Shown: positions 9,952 through 16,668 of the stretch, one piece after another | Numbering within the stretch: position 1 is the first letter of the stretch | Layout: every line of letters begins with the position of its first letter | Position numbers and translations under genes: made by a program | Source: Deltaproteobacteria bacterium | GTDB taxonomy: Archaea; Thermoplasmatota; Poseidoniia; Poseidoniales; Poseidoniaceae | Reading direction: 5' to 3' | Assembly (NCBI GenBank): GCA_028344335.1 | Contig: JAOMAZ010000013.1 | Span: forward strand, 1 to 38,123 | Length of the DNA stretch: 38,123 nucleotides | The notes under the pieces: model-generated | The model's input: only the letters and a program-made list of their open reading frames with translations | What the model was told of the DNA's origin: nothing | Databases searched by the model: none

Positions 9952-9982
9952 ATTCCCATAAGAAAAAGGTTCATGCAAATTG

Positions 9983-9993
9983 AATATTTTTTT
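9983..9993. promoter_or_regulatory. Candidate TATA-like element shared by the divergent thiR and decarboxylase genes
   Basis: AATATTTTTTT lies 37 bases upstream of the thiR ATG and reads AAAAAAATATT toward the decarboxylase. In archaea a TATA box sits about 25 bases before the transcription start, which would place a thiR start near 10015 and a short leader. No experimental support; the region is simply AT-rich. Confidence 0.35.
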
Positions 9994-9994
9994 A

Positions 9995-10017
9995 GCAATG
10001 TTGAATAACTACAATGC
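9995..10017. promoter_or_regulatory. Palindromic candidate operator upstream of thiR-thiBPQ
   Basis: Arms GCAATGTTG and CTACAATGC flank a 5-base AATAA spacer. Seven of nine arm positions are complementary, giving the pattern GCA-n-TGT-n-G...C-n-ACA-n-TGC. The element lies directly downstream of the TATA-like stretch and ends 12 bases before the thiR ATG, the place where an archaeal repressor would block transcription initiation. ThiR-family proteins are known repressors of thiamine genes, so autoregulation by the adjacent gene product is the natural inference. I did not see a second copy in this window. Confidence 0.5.
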
Positions 10018-10029
10018 AGTCGCCCATCT

Positions 10030-10893
10030 ATGTTAGGAGAAAGTGGAGATAGATGGTTGTTGCGATTACACATGCAATTAGCCCGAGACCTCAATGGTGC
10101 AGGTTGGAGCCAGAATCAAATCGCTGGAATTTTGGGCTCAACTCAGAGCACTGTATCTAGACAATTAAGCAGAACTTTACCCAACTTGCCAAGTGCTGAT
10201 GTGGACACCATAGATGCATGGTCAGCTGACCTTTCGAAGCACTTGATAGTGTATGGCCCCAATTCGAAAGTAGTCCGTCAAAGGATGATTATGGAAATCC
10301 AATTTGAAGGTGGCCAAACTTTCCAATCAAATCGAACATTAACGGGTGTTGAACTTGAAGGAGGTGCTGTGATGGCAAGCCTACTACGTCAATTAGAATG
10401 GTCTTGTTCACGCTTAAGCGTTGAAAGAATGAGTGATTGGGCATCTGCAGTTGGCATGAACTTAGCAGCATGTTTACCCGAGGCAAAATCCAGCGAAGAA
10501 GTAGCAGCATTCCCTGGTCGCCTCTCCATTCTTGGTGGACGCATCCGACACCATGAAAAAGCAACCCTTGGGGCTAGTTCAAGCCTCTCAAAAATATTAC
10601 TTCAAGCGAAAAAAATCGATGCAAATAAATGCTCAATCATCAACATCAAGGCCCCTATGAAGGGCAATCGTGTAGATGAAACTAAAATCACTAAATGCTG
10701 TCGAAATATGGGCTGGAAAATATCGAGCAGCAAGAAAGGGGAAGTGTCATCCACTGTTGGAGAAATTGATATCATCATTGAGGACGGCGAAATTGGCTGG
10801 GAACCTCATGTTTTCATTCTTGGAGAGAACCCTGGAGAAGTTGTCGCGAAGGCACATGCTTTCATTGATGCATTCGATGGAGGAACGGCGTGA
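10030..10893 (+). CDS. thiR: ThiR-like transcriptional regulator (HTH plus ThiN domain)
   Basis: Residues of about 10-50 form a helix-turn-helix (GWSQNQIAGILGSTQSTVSRQL). Residues of about 110-285 are a ThiN (archaeal thiamine-phosphate synthase-like) domain: GMNLAACLPEA, EEVAAFPGRL, LGASSSLSKILLQA, SIINIKAP. ThiN domains bind thiamine phosphate. In catalytic ThiN the last conserved segment normally reads GASSH, with a histidine I recall as catalytic; here it is GASSS, which fits a non-catalytic sensor. HTH-ThiN proteins (ThiR) repress thiamine synthesis and transport genes in archaea. Its stop codon touches the thiB ATG, and thiP and thiQ follow, so it very likely controls this operon and itself through the palindrome at 9995-10017. 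There are no membrane segments. Confidence 0.85.
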   Translation: MLGESGDRWLLRLHMQLARDLNGAGWSQNQIAGILGSTQSTVSRQLSRTLPNLPSADVDTIDAWSADLSKHLIVYGPNSKVVRQRMIMEIQFEGGQTFQSNRTLTGVELEGGAVMASLLRQLEWSCSRLSVERMSDWASAVGMNLAACLPEAKSSEEVAAFPGRLSILGGRIRHHEKATLGASSSLSKILLQAKKIDANKCSIINIKAPMKGNRVDETKITKCCRNMGWKISSSKKGEVSSTVGEIDIIIEDGEIGWEPHVFILGENPGEVVAKAHAFIDAFDGGTA

Positions 10894-11976
10894 ATGAGAA
10901 AAAATCTACTAATGATATTCCTCATGAGTAGTGCGATAACTTTGCCTGGTTGCTTAGGAACTGTTGAAATAGAAGCAGATAAAAGTAAAATCAGAATTCT
11001 TACTTACGATGTTTATGCCCTCTCTGATGATGTTATTTCCGATTTTGAAAAAGAAACTGGATATGAGGTTGTTTTCATCAAACAAGAAGATGGAGGAGCA
11101 GTTCTAGAAACAGCACTTCAGACAATAGATTCACCAATTGCGGACCTAATAATCGGCATTGATAATAGTTTTCTGCAAATCGCCCTTGACCATGAATTGT
11201 ATCAAGAATCAGGGATTGTACTACCCTCGATTCACCCCCAAGCGAGTTCACCATATTCAGGTGATTTGGCAATCCCTTATGATTGGGGGAAAGTATGCCT
11301 CAACATAAATAGTGAATATGCAGATGAAGAAAATGTCCCGATGCCAACCAACCTTTGGGACTTAACGGGCGAGGATTGGAAAGGAAAAGTTGCCGTACAG
11401 AACCCTAGAACAAGCACCCCTGGAAGAGCCTTCCTTGCTGCCACTGTGGATTATTTTGAAAACGATGCAGACAATTCAACAGATTATTCAGACTGGTGGA
11501 GTGCGATGAATGATAATAATATCATCATCACAAATGGCTGGTCCGAGTCCTACCTACAATACTACGAAGCAGGTTATGGAGTATGGGATGACTCCTTCAT
11601 TGGTGGCGCTCATGCTACTGTGTCATACTGTCATTCTCCAGGAGCAGAAGCCTACTGGGGAGATGGAACAACAAATAGCGTCGCCCTAAACATCAGTGGT
11701 GCATCTTTCCTTCAGGTAGAATATGCCGGAATCGCTTCAGGTCCCGGTGTCAATATTGAGGGAGCAAAAGTATTCCTCGAATTGCTTCTAAGCGATTCTA
11801 TTCAAAGTACGATCCCTGATACCAATGTCATGTATCCGGTATTATCGCATCTAAGCATACCTGAAGGGGCATACTTAGACCACACTGCTGACCCAGTTGA
11901 TGCAAGTATTAGCATGCAAAGAATCGCTACAGAAATGCATGGATGGTTGAATGAATGGGATTTGGCAATGGCCTAA
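10894..11976 (+). CDS. thiB: Thiamine ABC transporter, substrate-binding lipoprotein
   Basis: A 360-residue extracytoplasmic binding protein. The signal peptide ends in a lipobox, LPGC, with Cys20 as the lipid anchor. The mature part starts with IRILTYDVYALSDDVISDFE, the standard opening of ThiB/TbpA and related iron-binding-type proteins, and contains IPYDWGKVCLNIN, NLWDLTGEDWKGKVAVQNPR, TNGWSESYLQYYEAGYG and HATVSYCHSPGAEAYW. The tyrosine- and tryptophan-rich pocket segments fit an aromatic ligand such as thiamine rather than iron. It begins immediately after the thiR stop and overlaps thiP by 22 bases. A role in thiamine or thiamine-phosphate uptake follows from the neighbours and the ThiN regulator; the ligand itself is inferred. 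Confidence 0.88.
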   Translation: MRKNLLMIFLMSSAITLPGCLGTVEIEADKSKIRILTYDVYALSDDVISDFEKETGYEVVFIKQEDGGAVLETALQTIDSPIADLIIGIDNSFLQIALDHELYQESGIVLPSIHPQASSPYSGDLAIPYDWGKVCLNINSEYADEENVPMPTNLWDLTGEDWKGKVAVQNPRTSTPGRAFLAATVDYFENDADNSTDYSDWWSAMNDNNIIITNGWSESYLQYYEAGYGVWDDSFIGGAHATVSYCHSPGAEAYWGDGTTNSVALNISGASFLQVEYAGIASGPGVNIEGAKVFLELLLSDSIQSTIPDTNVMYPVLSHLSIPEGAYLDHTADPVDASISMQRIATEMHGWLNEWDLAMA

Positions 11977-13703
11977 GAATCAGAAGTCTATGGCAGGGAA
12001 TTCCTGCCTTACTTCTAATCATTATTATGGTTGTACCCATTCTATTGGCATGGCAGCGCTTAGTGGATACCAGTGAACTTAGTTTTTGGCAATCATTATT
12101 CGACCTTGATTCCCGTAGACAAACAAAAAATGCTGTGCCATTTTCTATTCTAATAGGTTTGATTTCTGCCCTAGCTACTGCTTTGATTGGACTTCCACTT
12201 TCGTTCATGCTTGGTCGATGGAAGTGGAGATGGAATCCACTTCTAAAACTCCTTGCAACCCTCCCATTCATTGTACCGAGTATCGTTGCAACCTTGGGTT
12301 TTCTTGAATTATTACGGAATGGAGGACTTTTTCACTCCCTAAGCGGGCTTGACTTGATTTCTGAAAAAGGGGTTATTTCTGATATGGGGGATGTCCTCGG
12401 GATTCAGCACTTGGGATGGTTAATTGCAATTATTATGGCCCATATTTGGTTCAATATTGCCCTGTTTGTCAGATTAGTCGAACCAGTTATTTCAAGATTA
12501 GATGAAAAAATGCTAGAGCAAGCAATGGTCTTACCCGCTGGGCGGAGTAGACTGGGGAGGATTCGTATTCTATGGTTGCCTTTGACTTGGGCTCATGCTG
12601 CTTCTGCGATGGTTTTGACCTTCGTTTTCTGTGCCACCTCTTTCGCTATTATTCTCCACTTCGGAGGATTTGAATTTTACACAATGGAGAGGGCCATGGC
12701 AGAACTTGGTGGCTCTGCTGGTATCTGCGCAAAAGGGGCAAGTAGGTGCTATGGCGCAGACGCCAGCGCTGTGGTTATGGCTCTCTCTTCGATTCAACTT
12801 CTCATAATTCTCTCGGCACTTTGGCTTCAATCATTTCTAGCAAGAAAAAAACAAGTCCCATGGCCGATATCTCAAAACAAGAAAAAACAGGCCCCGAAAG
12901 TGTTGTGGGTACCAATAGCCTTGATGATGATATTCTTGGCTGCTCCATTAATTTCAATTCTTGTTGCCAGCTTCAAAGTGAAGGGGGATTTTTCTTTGCG
13001 AGCATGGTCTGCTTCCTTTGAAGGTGAAATGTTCTCCCACTTAGAAAATTCATTATTCTATGCTGGCATGACAGCATTAATCATCATTCCATTCTCCATC
13101 TTATGCTGTGAAATTTGTATTCTTGCGGAAAAAAGAGCATGTCGAGGAATCAATCCCAGACTCAACCGGCTTTGGTCGGCCTTCAATGAAAATCTTGCAT
13201 TAACACCCTTGGCACTTTCAAGTGTGATGATCGGATTAGGGGTTCTTATTGGTATCATAAGGATTTCACCAAGCCTCATTCAAGAATGGTGGATTCCTCT
13301 TATTGGACATTGCATGGTTGCCCTACCATTTGCAATAAAATGCATTTTGCAGGCGATGAGAAATCTTCAACCAGAGCACCAAGAAATTGCTGCAACCCTT
13401 GGCTTAACACCGTTTGAAAATTGGCTCAAAATAAGATTGAGGTTATTGAAGTCGCCAATAATTGTGGCCTCCTCATTAGTAATTGCAATTTCATTAGGTG
13501 AATTTGGTGCCAGTTGGGTCGTAATTAGAGCCACTAGTCATGCAACCTTACCGATGTTCATAGATTCAGCAATTAGCCGACCATTTGATTCTCTGGCTAG
13601 GCCAAGTGCAATGGTTGCCTCAACTATACTTCTTACATGCTGTGCAATTCTACATCTTACCGCAGAAAGGTTCAGGGGCTCAGGTCAGGGGAGTGGCTTC
13701 TAA
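11955..13703 (+). CDS. thiP: Thiamine ABC transporter, permease
   Basis: A 582-residue membrane protein made of two fused permease halves, as in ThiP and other FbpB/ThiP-type importers. Each half holds about six hydrophobic helices. The cytoplasmic coupling (EAA-type) loops are EQAMVLPAGRSRLGRIRILWLP in the first half and EIAATLGLTPFENWLKIRL in the second, each the docking site for the ATPase. The segment GEFGASWVVIR near the C-terminus is typical of the family. The gene overlaps thiB by 22 bases and thiQ by one base (TAATG), so translation is coupled. Length is near that of E. coli ThiP plus a short extension. It would form the membrane channel with two ThiQ subunits. Confidence 0.9.
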   Translation: MGFGNGLRIRSLWQGIPALLLIIIMVVPILLAWQRLVDTSELSFWQSLFDLDSRRQTKNAVPFSILIGLISALATALIGLPLSFMLGRWKWRWNPLLKLLATLPFIVPSIVATLGFLELLRNGGLFHSLSGLDLISEKGVISDMGDVLGIQHLGWLIAIIMAHIWFNIALFVRLVEPVISRLDEKMLEQAMVLPAGRSRLGRIRILWLPLTWAHAASAMVLTFVFCATSFAIILHFGGFEFYTMERAMAELGGSAGICAKGASRCYGADASAVVMALSSIQLLIILSALWLQSFLARKKQVPWPISQNKKKQAPKVLWVPIALMMIFLAAPLISILVASFKVKGDFSLRAWSASFEGEMFSHLENSLFYAGMTALIIIPFSILCCEICILAEKRACRGINPRLNRLWSAFNENLALTPLALSSVMIGLGVLIGIIRISPSLIQEWWIPLIGHCMVALPFAIKCILQAMRNLQPEHQEIAATLGLTPFENWLKIRLRLLKSPIIVASSLVIAISLGEFGASWVVIRATSHATLPMFIDSAISRPFDSLARPSAMVASTILLTCCAILHLTAERFRGSGQGSGF

Positions 13704-14353
13704 TGGCAACTGCACTGCAAGTCTGTGGCCTATCAGTTTCTTTTGAAGGAGAAAGATTTCTTGAGGACATTAATTTCGCAGTTGAAGAAAATGAAATCGT
13801 CGCCCTAGTTGGAGAGAATGGCTCTGGAAAGACCACCTTACTTCGCACAATTTGTGGTCTACAAGATATCGATGAAGGAAGCATCATACTCAATAACAAA
13901 GAAATTTCAGGACAATCGGTTTACAAGAGGGGGATTGGACTTGTCTTTCAACAAACTTTGCTGATGCCCCAACTGGATGTAGCCGGCAATCTTGCTATTG
14001 GCATACCTCGAAGCATAGCCAAAAAAGAAATTCCGTCAATCATAGAAAGAGCATTGGAGGATATCGGTCTTTCTGGATTCCAAAGGAGGAAGGTTTCCAC
14101 CCTTTCTGGTGGAGAGGCCCAAAGGATCTCTTTGATGAGAGCATTATTAGCAGAACCAAAATTCTTACTCATGGATGAGCCATTGGTAAATCAAGATATT
14201 CACAATAAAAAAAAATTGGGTGAAGAAATCAGAGGCCTACTCAAACAACGCGGGGTTGCTGCATTGATAGTTACCCACCAACCAACAGTGGCAGAAAGTA
14301 TCTGCGATAGAGTTCTCTACATTAGTTCCCTCAAAGGAGGTGAAGAAGAATGA
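13703..14353 (+). CDS. thiQ: Thiamine ABC transporter, ATP-binding protein
   Basis: A 216-residue ABC ATPase energising ThiP. Visible motifs are Walker A GENGSGKTT, Q-loop VFQQTLLMPQL, signature LSGGEAQRISL, Walker B KFLLMDEP and H-loop VTHQ. The D-loop region reads PLVNQDIHNK instead of the common SALD form, a small deviation. The ATG at 13703 shares its first base with the thiP stop (TAATG) and gives the expected N-terminus MATALQVCGLSVSFEGERF; an earlier in-frame start at 13637 would lie inside thiP and adds unrelated residues. Its stop overlaps the PAP2 gene start by four bases (ATGA), so all five genes of this run look like one transcription unit. Confidence 0.92.
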   Translation: MATALQVCGLSVSFEGERFLEDINFAVEENEIVALVGENGSGKTTLLRTICGLQDIDEGSIILNNKEISGQSVYKRGIGLVFQQTLLMPQLDVAGNLAIGIPRSIAKKEIPSIIERALEDIGLSGFQRRKVSTLSGGEAQRISLMRALLAEPKFLLMDEPLVNQDIHNKKKLGEEIRGLLKQRGVAALIVTHQPTVAESICDRVLYISSLKGGEEE

Positions 14354-15135
14354 AGGATATTCACTCAATTCTCAAACCATGGCCGATGTGGAAGAGTCAT
14401 TGGCAAAAAAGGCAACAACAAAATGGTAGAAGACTGCAATATATTGCCTTTTTTTCTACGATACTCTTCCTCGCAATTCCCTATGGTATCATCAACCAAA
14501 TTATTAGTTGGATGGATATCTCAAGGCTTGACCCAGTCACGCCATTGGATGATGCAATTCCATTCATCGCGTGGACACTTATTCCCTATCTCAGTTTGTA
14601 CTTCTACTACCCTGCGGGTGCGTTAATGTCTCCAAAAAATGATACTGGTAGAATCCAAATGCTGATGTTGCATCAAGTTTTATTCCTTAGTTCATGGGCA
14701 ATAAGCATTATTTTTATTCTTATTCCAACCAATATCCACATCCGTAACCATATTCCAGAGAGCATCAGGGCAGGGGAAGGTTTCTGGGGTTTCTTCTATG
14801 GCGATATCATGCACAATACAGACCAGCCGTGGAATGCTTGGCCAAGTCTACATATCGTACAAAGCCTACTCATCGTATTGATGCTAACCCATTGGCTGAA
14901 GCCACAACAAAGAATAAAAACAATTCTTGCATTATGGATTGGCTGGTTGATGTTGGCAATATCTGTCCTAACAACCAAACAACATTTCGTCTTCGACCTA
15001 GTAACAGGAATAATTGTCGCATTATTATGCTGGCACTGGCTACTAAAGCCAGCGATAAAATGGAGCGAATCTGAAGCCGCTACTGATTTCACATTCAAGG
15101 AAAGGGAACTCCATCCTAGTAAAGTCGAAACTTAA
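14350..15135 (+). CDS. PAP2-superfamily membrane phosphatase-like protein in the thiamine operon
   Basis: A 261-residue protein with about six membrane helices. It carries two of the three PAP2 phosphatase motifs: WPSLHIVQS near residue 165 (P-S-x-H, proton donor His) and TTKQHFVFDLVTG near 210 (nucleophile His followed by the supporting Asp). The first motif (K-x6-R-P) is not evident, as in the PAP2_3 inositolphosphotransferase-type branch. Such enzymes hydrolyse or transfer phosphate on the outer membrane face. The start overlaps thiQ by four bases, so it is co-translated with the thiamine importer. A role in dephosphorylating external thiamine phosphates before uptake is an attractive inference; lipid metabolism is the plain alternative. 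Confidence 0.75.
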   Translation: MKDIHSILKPWPMWKSHWQKRQQQNGRRLQYIAFFSTILFLAIPYGIINQIISWMDISRLDPVTPLDDAIPFIAWTLIPYLSLYFYYPAGALMSPKNDTGRIQMLMLHQVLFLSSWAISIIFILIPTNIHIRNHIPESIRAGEGFWGFFYGDIMHNTDQPWNAWPSLHIVQSLLIVLMLTHWLKPQQRIKTILALWIGWLMLAISVLTTKQHFVFDLVTGIIVALLCWHWLLKPAIKWSESEAATDFTFKERELHPSKVET

Positions 15136-15180: not shown

Positions 15181-16668
15181 TCAGAATTGAAGACCTGCTG
15201 CCGACAAATAATAGATCAAACCAAGTCCTGCAAATGTCATCATCCATGCTCCAACCATTTTGATCATACCAGTTGCACGACGTAAGAAATCAATGAACAT
15301 CGTACGCCCTAAGCCAACCATCATAGTTACTGCAGTCATCAAAAATACTACAGATAACATCAAGCCAGTCAAACCAGCAATGGTTGCCCCATCTCCGGCA
15401 ACGGCAGTGTATGCAATAAATGGTAGAACAGCAGCAGCAGTACAATCTATTGAAGCAGCTGCATAACCAATACCATATAGATACATATTGCGGCGTGGTG
15501 TGAATTTATCATCTGCTTCAGTGGTTGACCAACGGTCGACTAAACGCTGAACAAAACTCATCAACTTTGCAGTACCACCCATCAACATGAAAGCCCCCAA
15601 GACAGTCAATAAAACTGCAATGAAGTAAGCAATGTAAAGGAAGATAGATGCAAAATTAATGAATTGATTCAAAGTTACTACTGCCACTCCAATTACCAAG
15701 AAAAAAGTCAGCATACCGGCTCCAGCCAATAATCCAATCGACATGCTACTAGGCATTGATCCCTTCAATTTACCAGATGCTTTCATCTCTTCCTCACGCA
15801 ATCCAAGATTGAGGTAATAGGAGATGTACGAGGGCAATACTGGGAATGCACATGGTGAGAAGTAAACTAACAAACCAACGAAAAGTCCTAACACAAAAAC
15901 CGGCCAAAAGCCGACCTGAAGAGCCTCAATTCCAAACCTATCATCATCTGCTTCACCATTGATTGCTCTCTCAACTTTTTCGTCAAAATCAGACCAGTCC
16001 TTAGCAGAAGAACCACCTACTTCCTTTGCAACAGGATAGCCTTCATGGTCAATAACATAGACAACAGGAGGCGCAGTTACCGAATAGTGTTTCATTAAAT
16101 CTTCACGTTTACCATCAAGTGAACCATTTTCATCTAAAATAGCAGCATCGACGGCTCCTGTTGCTAAGGTCCAAGGAGTATAGTGACAAGAATTGGCTTC
16201 TCCGTCTGTATCATTATCCCCAAAACAATCATCTAAATCATCAATACTTTCGACGTAGTCTCCTGAATAAAATACCCCTATACTAACAACAACTACATCG
16301 TATCCATCCATGGATTGCCAATCTGACAACTCTTCATCGATATGAAAAGTAACCCATTCACATCCAGTACAAGAAATGGCCATGAAATCAACGATTACCA
16401 CCTTTCCACGATGGTCGGATAATCGAAATACTCCGGTATCATTTGTGACTGAATCTTCAATGCCGCTGCGGTTTGCTGTATCAACAACAAAATCAGTCGC
16501 CAATTCAGCCTCATCTGAGGTGCCAAAACCTTTGGCGGCAGAATCAAACAAAGTCAAGGCTGCAGTGGCAATGATGCCGAATAGCACTATGCTAATGCCA
16601 AATGCTTGCCAAGTTTGCTTTTGTTTGAAGACGCCGAAGTCAAGGCCGAGGCTCTCTTGTAGACCCAT
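15181..16668 (-). CDS. TlpA-like thioredoxin fused to CcdA/DsbD-type thiol transporter
   Basis: A 495-residue fusion. One N-terminal helix (about 20-42) anchors a thioredoxin-like domain with VVIVDFMAISCTGCEWV, where Cys100 and Cys103 form the CxxC pair. From about residue 255 follow six to seven membrane helices of the CcdA family with the two conserved cysteines in YFSPCAFPVLPSY (Cys273) and ASIDCTAAAVLPF (Cys409). CcdA carries electrons across the membrane to reduce external disulfides, for example in cytochrome c maturation or disulfide repair; the fused domain would be the direct acceptor. An extra acidic, cysteine-flanked loop (DDCFGDNDTDGEANSC) interrupts the thioredoxin fold. It is convergent with the PAP2 gene and divergent from the next gene. 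Confidence 0.88.
   Translation of the reverse strand: MGLQESLGLDFGVFKQKQTWQAFGISIVLFGIIATAALTLFDSAAKGFGTSDEAELATDFVVDTANRSGIEDSVTNDTGVFRLSDHRGKVVIVDFMAISCTGCEWVTFHIDEELSDWQSMDGYDVVVVSIGVFYSGDYVESIDDLDDCFGDNDTDGEANSCHYTPWTLATGAVDAAILDENGSLDGKREDLMKHYSVTAPPVVYVIDHEGYPVAKEVGGSSAKDWSDFDEKVERAINGEADDDRFGIEALQVGFWPVFVLGLFVGLLVYFSPCAFPVLPSYISYYLNLGLREEEMKASGKLKGSMPSSMSIGLLAGAGMLTFFLVIGVAVVTLNQFINFASIFLYIAYFIAVLLTVLGAFMLMGGTAKLMSFVQRLVDRWSTTEADDKFTPRRNMYLYGIGYAAASIDCTAAAVLPFIAYTAVAGDGATIAGLTGLMLSVVFLMTAVTMMVGLGRTMFIDFLRRATGMIKMVGAWMMTFAGLGLIYYLSAAGLQF

Follow-up and report, generated by a model that had tools for sequence, protein, structure and literature searches.

The window analyzed here, a stretch of 38,123 nucleotides from a member of Candidatus Poseidoniales (Marine Group II), contains a five-gene operon encoding the regulator ThiR, the importer ThiBPQ and a predicted membrane phosphatase of the PAP2 superfamily (hereafter PAP2). 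The operon is probably a vitamin B1 salvage module, in which PAP2 would act as an ectophosphatase that dephosphorylates thiamine monophosphate (TMP) and thiamine diphosphate (TDP) before uptake, a substrate suggested by genomic context. A dedicated involvement of PAP2 in thiamine uptake is very likely, and TMP/TDP hydrolysis is, judging from that context, most likely its activity. Somewhat more cautiously, we favor the broader proposal that PAP2 represents an undescribed family of membrane thiamine-phosphate ectophosphatases, forming the fixed core of a module with an exchangeable transporter (ThiBPQ or a sodium:solute symporter, SSS) and an exchangeable regulator (ThiR or a thiamine pyrophosphate (TPP) riboswitch), and that Poseidoniales may thereby live on phosphorylated B1 released by other cells. 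The genes of the operon are as follows:

10030..10893, forward strand: ThiR, 287 amino acids, regulator with a helix-turn-helix (HTH) and a ThiN domain
10894..11976, forward strand: ThiB, 360 amino acids, thiamine-binding lipoprotein (LPGC lipobox)
11955..13703, forward strand: ThiP, 582 amino acids, fused two-domain ATP-binding cassette (ABC) permease
13703..14353, forward strand: ThiQ, 216 amino acids, ABC ATPase
14350..15135, forward strand: PAP2, predicted PAP2_3 membrane phosphatase, 261 amino acids, six membrane helices, catalytic H168, H212 and D216

Linkage of PAP2 to thiamine transporters

The source genome (G000), a metagenome-assembled genome (MAG) that is 57% complete, was compared with 59 relatives. 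The family of the window, f1, was taken to be Poseidoniaceae, as its named GTDB relatives are Candidatus Poseidoniales and many are labelled Poseidoniaceae, and the sister family, f2, is presumably Thalassarchaeaceae. Homologues of PAP2 were found in 54 of the relatives, of ThiP in 36, of ThiB in 35 and of ThiR in 32, the last only in f1. The gene that can stand upstream of PAP2 in place of ThiBPQ encodes an SSS (PF00474), with orthologues in 18 genomes. In 28 of the 36 genomes with ThiP and 14 of the 18 with SSS, PAP2 follows the transporter on the same strand at a distance of no more than approximately 3 kb; several loci in the remaining twelve stop at a contig edge. In a further 80 loci, some from genomes already in the first set, the genes upstream of PAP2 were those of ThiBPQ in 61, ThiR-SSS in seven and ThiR only in one, the rest being unlinked or cut. 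The position of PAP2 beside thiQ is therefore not peculiar to this genome, a possibility that the first-pass annotation had wanted checked, since throughout the order PAP2 follows a thiamine transporter gene, of whichever type is present. That annotation also knew of no established role for PAP2 in such a transporter, and our search of a limited literature library agreed, finding no report that ties the two together.

The two transporters never occur in one genome (ThiP in 36, SSS in 18, overlap 0, n = 59; Fisher p = 5e-11, relatedness ignored), and in G022 ThiR-SSS occupies the slot held by ThiR-ThiBPQ in its congeners G015 and G029. On the PAP2 tree, which otherwise mostly follows the f1 and f2 families, long branches excepted, the transporter label changes eight times, with at least six changes forced by well-supported branches. 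The transporter is thus swapped around a conserved PAP2, with PAP2 as the fixed part and the transporter as the one that varies. In the SSS tree f1 and f2 are intermingled, which suggests that the gene was transferred between members of the order. The symporter found in place of ThiBPQ is probably a new thiamine symporter; it could not serve salvage of hydroxymethylpyrimidine (HMP) by any known route, because these archaea lack ThiC and have no ThiE over the cut-off.

It might be argued that this is old synteny only, and that PAP2 chanced to sit beside a conserved TlpA/CcdA gene and remained there. PAP2 does adjoin this convergent gene, or a PiT transporter gene, in both families, and in gene-order maps of 61 loci, the window included, it is mostly the last gene before TlpA/CcdA (f1) or PiT (f2). 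Such an account, however, leaves unexplained why a thiamine transporter was placed upstream at each exchange, why genus g5 keeps a ThiR-PAP2 pair with its own operator box, and why PAP2 directly overlaps its upstream neighbor (by 4 bases in the window, and by 11, 26 and 4 bases in the SSS operons of G051, G044 and G046, respectively); we regard it as very unlikely. In the window the convergent neighbor, at 15181-16668, is a thioredoxin/TlpA-like and CcdA-like membrane protein that is kept in this position across the order.

The reading of the five genes in the first-pass annotation agrees exactly with the reading frames, with a gap of 0 between ThiR and ThiB and overlaps of 22 bases (ThiB-ThiP), 1 base (ThiP-ThiQ, with the ThiQ ATG at 13703) and 4 bases (ThiQ-PAP2), and its gene names are backed by Pfam and NCBIfam. 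Its description of PAP2 as "fused-in" was mistaken, PAP2 being a separate gene whose ATGA overlap with thiQ is of the kind typical of translational coupling. ThiR matches ThiN (PF10120) over residues 134-275 with 90.8 bits (Pfam cut-off 25), with weak N-terminal HTH matches below the Pfam cut-offs. ThiB reaches 162 bits against TIGR01254 (NCBIfam cut-off 93) and 88.6 bits against the narrower thiB equivalog, short of its cut-off of 317, and matches the solved thiamine-binding periplasmic protein 2qry (E = 4.9e-25). PF00528 is found in two stretches of ThiP, with ThiP models among the best matches, all below equivalog cut-offs, and ThiQ matches PF00005 with 123.7 bits and carries the Walker A motif GENGSGKT and the signature LSGGEAQR. 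PAP2 scores 37.8 bits against PAP2_3 (PF14378) and 30.8 against PAP2 (PF01569), the cut-offs being approximately 27. The TPP riboswitches before the orthologous operon of the sister family support binding or transport of thiamine, or of its phosphates, as the probable function of ThiBPQ.

In most f1 loci, two further genes of seemingly unrelated nature lie between the transporter and PAP2, namely c13 (L066:6939-7472, approximately 178 amino acids) and c11 (L080:4446-5666, approximately 405 amino acids, with a C-terminal zinc ribbon). The pair is reversed in G019, G043 and G057, and it was left out of the module since the reverse orientation also occurs. A typical Poseidoniales ThiR-ThiBPQ-PAP2 locus was also observed on L216, labelled Gammaproteobacteria MED855, which is probably a mis-binned contig.

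Putative regulation by ThiR and TPP riboswitches

PAP2 is associated with thiamine control through two unrelated mechanisms, as it mostly stands behind a ThiR box in f1 and behind TPP riboswitches in f2. The elements concerned are:

9973..9985, forward strand: putative ThiR operator, ATGCAAATTGAAT, one mismatch to the consensus ATGCAnnnTGCAT, conserved before thiR
10001..10007, forward strand: TTGAATA, TATA-like promoter element located 22 bases upstream of the ATG of ThiR, conserved with the box
L116:3661-3771: TPP riboswitch (f2), with equivalents at L101, L102, L104-L106, L108, L110, L111, L114, L117 and L132

The layout of the box in f1 is ATGCAnnnTGCAT-N15-TTGAATA, with TTGAATA approximately 22 bases before the thiR start codon, from which we infer that the thiR mRNA is leaderless. 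In 39 of 45 upstream regions the box was present within one mismatch at exactly 15 nucleotides from TTGAATA, and on scanning whole genomes matches to the box within one mismatch occurred almost only before thiR; none was found in the 24 f2 genomes, which are without ThiR. The conserved operator and promoter region of the window spans 9973-10007, and the operon start at 9983 given by the first-pass annotation falls within the promoter region, ThiR itself starting at 10030. ThiR pairs an N-terminal HTH with a C-terminal ThiN domain, and its putative operator is conserved ahead of thiamine genes; HTH-ThiN proteins reportedly act as repressors. In G028, where SSS lies on another contig, the ThiR box precedes it by approximately 80 bases, with TTGAATA 13 bases on from the box. 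In g5, a genus of f1, a ThiR-PAP2 pair has the box in front of it, whilst ThiBPQ, unlinked to PAP2, stands elsewhere behind a TPP riboswitch of its own (G032 and G025; L091 and L092). Further box-like matches, in g5 (L259-L261) and G020 (L263), fall within reading frames and were put down to chance.

TPP riboswitches (RF00059) were identified before SSS-PAP2 and ThiBPQ-PAP2 at 12 of 17 f2 loci scanned. Nine of them reach the Rfam threshold and three fall slightly short of it (E at most 7e-7), and the ribosome-binding site of the SSS gene or of thiB is contained in their last helix. A scan of 12 f1 loci yielded none, and an Rfam scan of the window gave no match. At L107, L113, L115 and L119 (genus g16 and G041) the search for a TPP riboswitch gave no match, and the symporter gene shares 1-4 bases with the aldehyde dehydrogenase gene that precedes it; these genomes may have lost control of uptake or acquired a different form of it.

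This regulation by thiamine elements also bears on the idea that PAP2 is a phosphatase for phosphate scavenging, feeding the neighboring PiT phosphate transporter rather than vitamin salvage. Whilst a PiT gene does follow PAP2 in most f2 loci, it is on the opposite strand and is absent beside PAP2 in f1, and together with the thiamine control this leaves the idea with very little probability, the least of those weighed here. As an observation in its own right, the PiT protein has a PhoU-like tail (L110:5965-8100), and its gene runs towards PAP2 from the opposite strand at almost every f2 locus; it possibly takes up phosphate released by PAP2.

The PAP2 protein and the fate of thiamine

Across 49 sequences the residues D158, N162, W164, P165, S166, H168, S205, Q211, H212 and D216 of PAP2 are invariant, and with them the motifs NxWPSxH and SxxxxKQHxxxD. 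Both the PSxH and SxxxxxxHxxxD motifs of the PAP2 superfamily and its fold are present. In motif C1 (KxxxxxxRP) only R132 is conserved, in 48 of 49 sequences and at about the expected place; members of PAP2_3 often deviate from this motif. The AlphaFold model (pLDDT 92) has six long membrane helices, and since lysine and arginine are concentrated in the N-terminus and the loops 92-103 and 183-192, whereas the active-site loop 125-166 is acidic, the positive-inside distribution of charge would place the N-terminus inside and the active site outside the membrane. The inference of the first-pass annotation, that PAP2 may hydrolyse thiamine phosphates from seawater so that ThiB can bind the product, gains strong support, short of proof, from the order-wide linkage, from the missing biosynthesis genes described below and from catalytic residues that are invariant and predicted to face outside.

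A sequence search of the PDB with the PAP2 profile gave one match (E = 0.15). Solved folds matching the model include LpxE, and the matches to PAP2 enzymes span Z 8 to 15: sphingomyelin synthase (SMS)-related protein (Z 14.6), inositol phosphorylceramide (IPC) synthase (12.9), Aur1 (12.3), PgpB (11.7), G6PC1 (11.0) and PhoN (8.8). Judging from the model, these matches suggest phosphoryl transfer by histidine without fixing the substrate. As SMS-related protein, IPC synthase, Aur1, PgpB and LpxE are the best matches, and the Pfam family, PAP2_3, includes Aur1-type enzymes, PAP2 could instead act on a lipid (polyprenyl phosphate or an archaeal phospholipid), for instance as an IPC-synthase-like phosphotransferase, its operon position being unrelated to thiamine chemistry. 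A lipid enzyme, however, does not explain why the linkage persisted when the transporter was exchanged at least six times and when the TPP riboswitch took the place of ThiR, nor why PAP2 pairs with ThiR alone in g5, and G6PC1 and PhoN use small soluble esters within the same fold. A lipid substrate is therefore considered unlikely.

A thiamine-phosphate substrate is also consistent with the thiamine metabolism of the order, which follows what the first-pass annotation expected of an auxotroph. ThiC was found in none of the 59 genomes, with 13 of 14 controls positive, ThiE in none over the cut-off, and no full-length Thi4 was seen among the matches listed, which mostly covered profile positions 10-60 in flavoproteins of 380-620 amino acids through a shared flavin adenine dinucleotide-binding fold. 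ThiL likewise did not exceed its cut-off in any of the 59 genomes; of the 54 weak matches, three were tested as candidates and were PurM. Thiamine pyrophosphokinase (TPK), on the other hand, was over its cut-off in 53 of 59 genomes and present in all 20 genera, its identity being confirmed by TIGR01378 in the two tested; none was seen in G000, as can be expected at 57% completeness. TPK makes the diphosphate from free thiamine in a single reaction, whereas use of TMP would need ThiL. With TPK present and no ThiL over the cut-off, free thiamine is usable and imported TMP is without a known route, and this dead end gives a reason for a phosphatase to exist.

In the proposed mechanism, PAP2 would be a membrane-anchored, thiamine-dedicated ectophosphatase that strips phosphate from dissolved TMP and TDP. 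Free thiamine would then be bound by the lipoprotein ThiB and imported through ThiP/ThiQ, or by the SSS symporter in many relatives, and TPK would turn it into TDP in one step inside the cell. The ThiN domain of ThiR may sense thiamine status and control the operon via the box at 9973-9985, a role that the TPP riboswitch would take in f2. Operon structure, linkage across the order, the exchanges of transporter and regulator around PAP2, the regulatory elements, the lack of biosynthesis genes and the intact catalytic residues are the observed parts of this model; the substrate, the membrane side (from the charge distribution) and the ligand and direction of control of ThiR are the inferred ones.

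Several points weigh against it. The nearest solved folds of PAP2 are lipid enzymes, and the relatives compared are mostly incomplete MAGs. A different gene follows thiQ in G006, which is 91% complete, no full riboswitch was found at 5 of the 17 f2 loci scanned, and in genus g4 PAP2 lies behind an aconitase gene with no box, where its grouping with the PAP2 of g11 in the tree suggests reacquisition. Phosphorylated thiamine is also a ligand of E. coli ThiB, such that ThiBPQ does not strictly depend on a phosphatase, and TDP taken up intact would be directly usable. In one coastal series, most TMP values did not reach the quantification limit (PMC10881298).

Comparison with known systems

No cultured representatives of Marine Group II existed when the order was named, and thiamine is unmentioned in the two main genome papers of the group (PMC6461757, PMC6336850). 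The present findings lead to the prediction that Marine Group II is obligately dependent on preformed thiamine, name a phosphatase through which the phosphorylated thiamine pool would become accessible, and offer a natural example of a regulator and a transporter swapped around one enzyme. If this is true, an archaeal group that ranks among the most abundant in the ocean could live on phosphorylated B1 from other cells.

The operon shares with the E. coli ThiBPQ importer a binding protein, a fused permease and an ATPase in one operon, but differs in the PAP2 gene within it, in the HTH-ThiN regulator in f1 and in having no thiamine biosynthesis behind it. The logic proposed here matches that of yeasts, in which CgPMU3 and its relatives are phosphatases regulated by thiamine starvation, CgPMU3 being described as critical for access to external thiamine (PMC6027888, PMC10246790). 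The yeast enzymes, however, belong to eukaryotic histidine phosphatase families of an unrelated fold, whereas here the enzyme is an integral membrane PAP2 in an archaeal transporter operon. ThiV of SAR11 is an SSS-type HMP importer under TPP riboswitch control (PMC11452348) and, compared by description, resembles the Poseidoniales symporter in family and in its riboswitch, although the cargo of ThiV is HMP and that of the symporter is probably thiamine. Aur1, IPC synthase and SMS-related protein share with PAP2 the fold and the PSxH and HxxxD motifs, but at approximately 10% identity, and the context of PAP2 is thiamine-linked.

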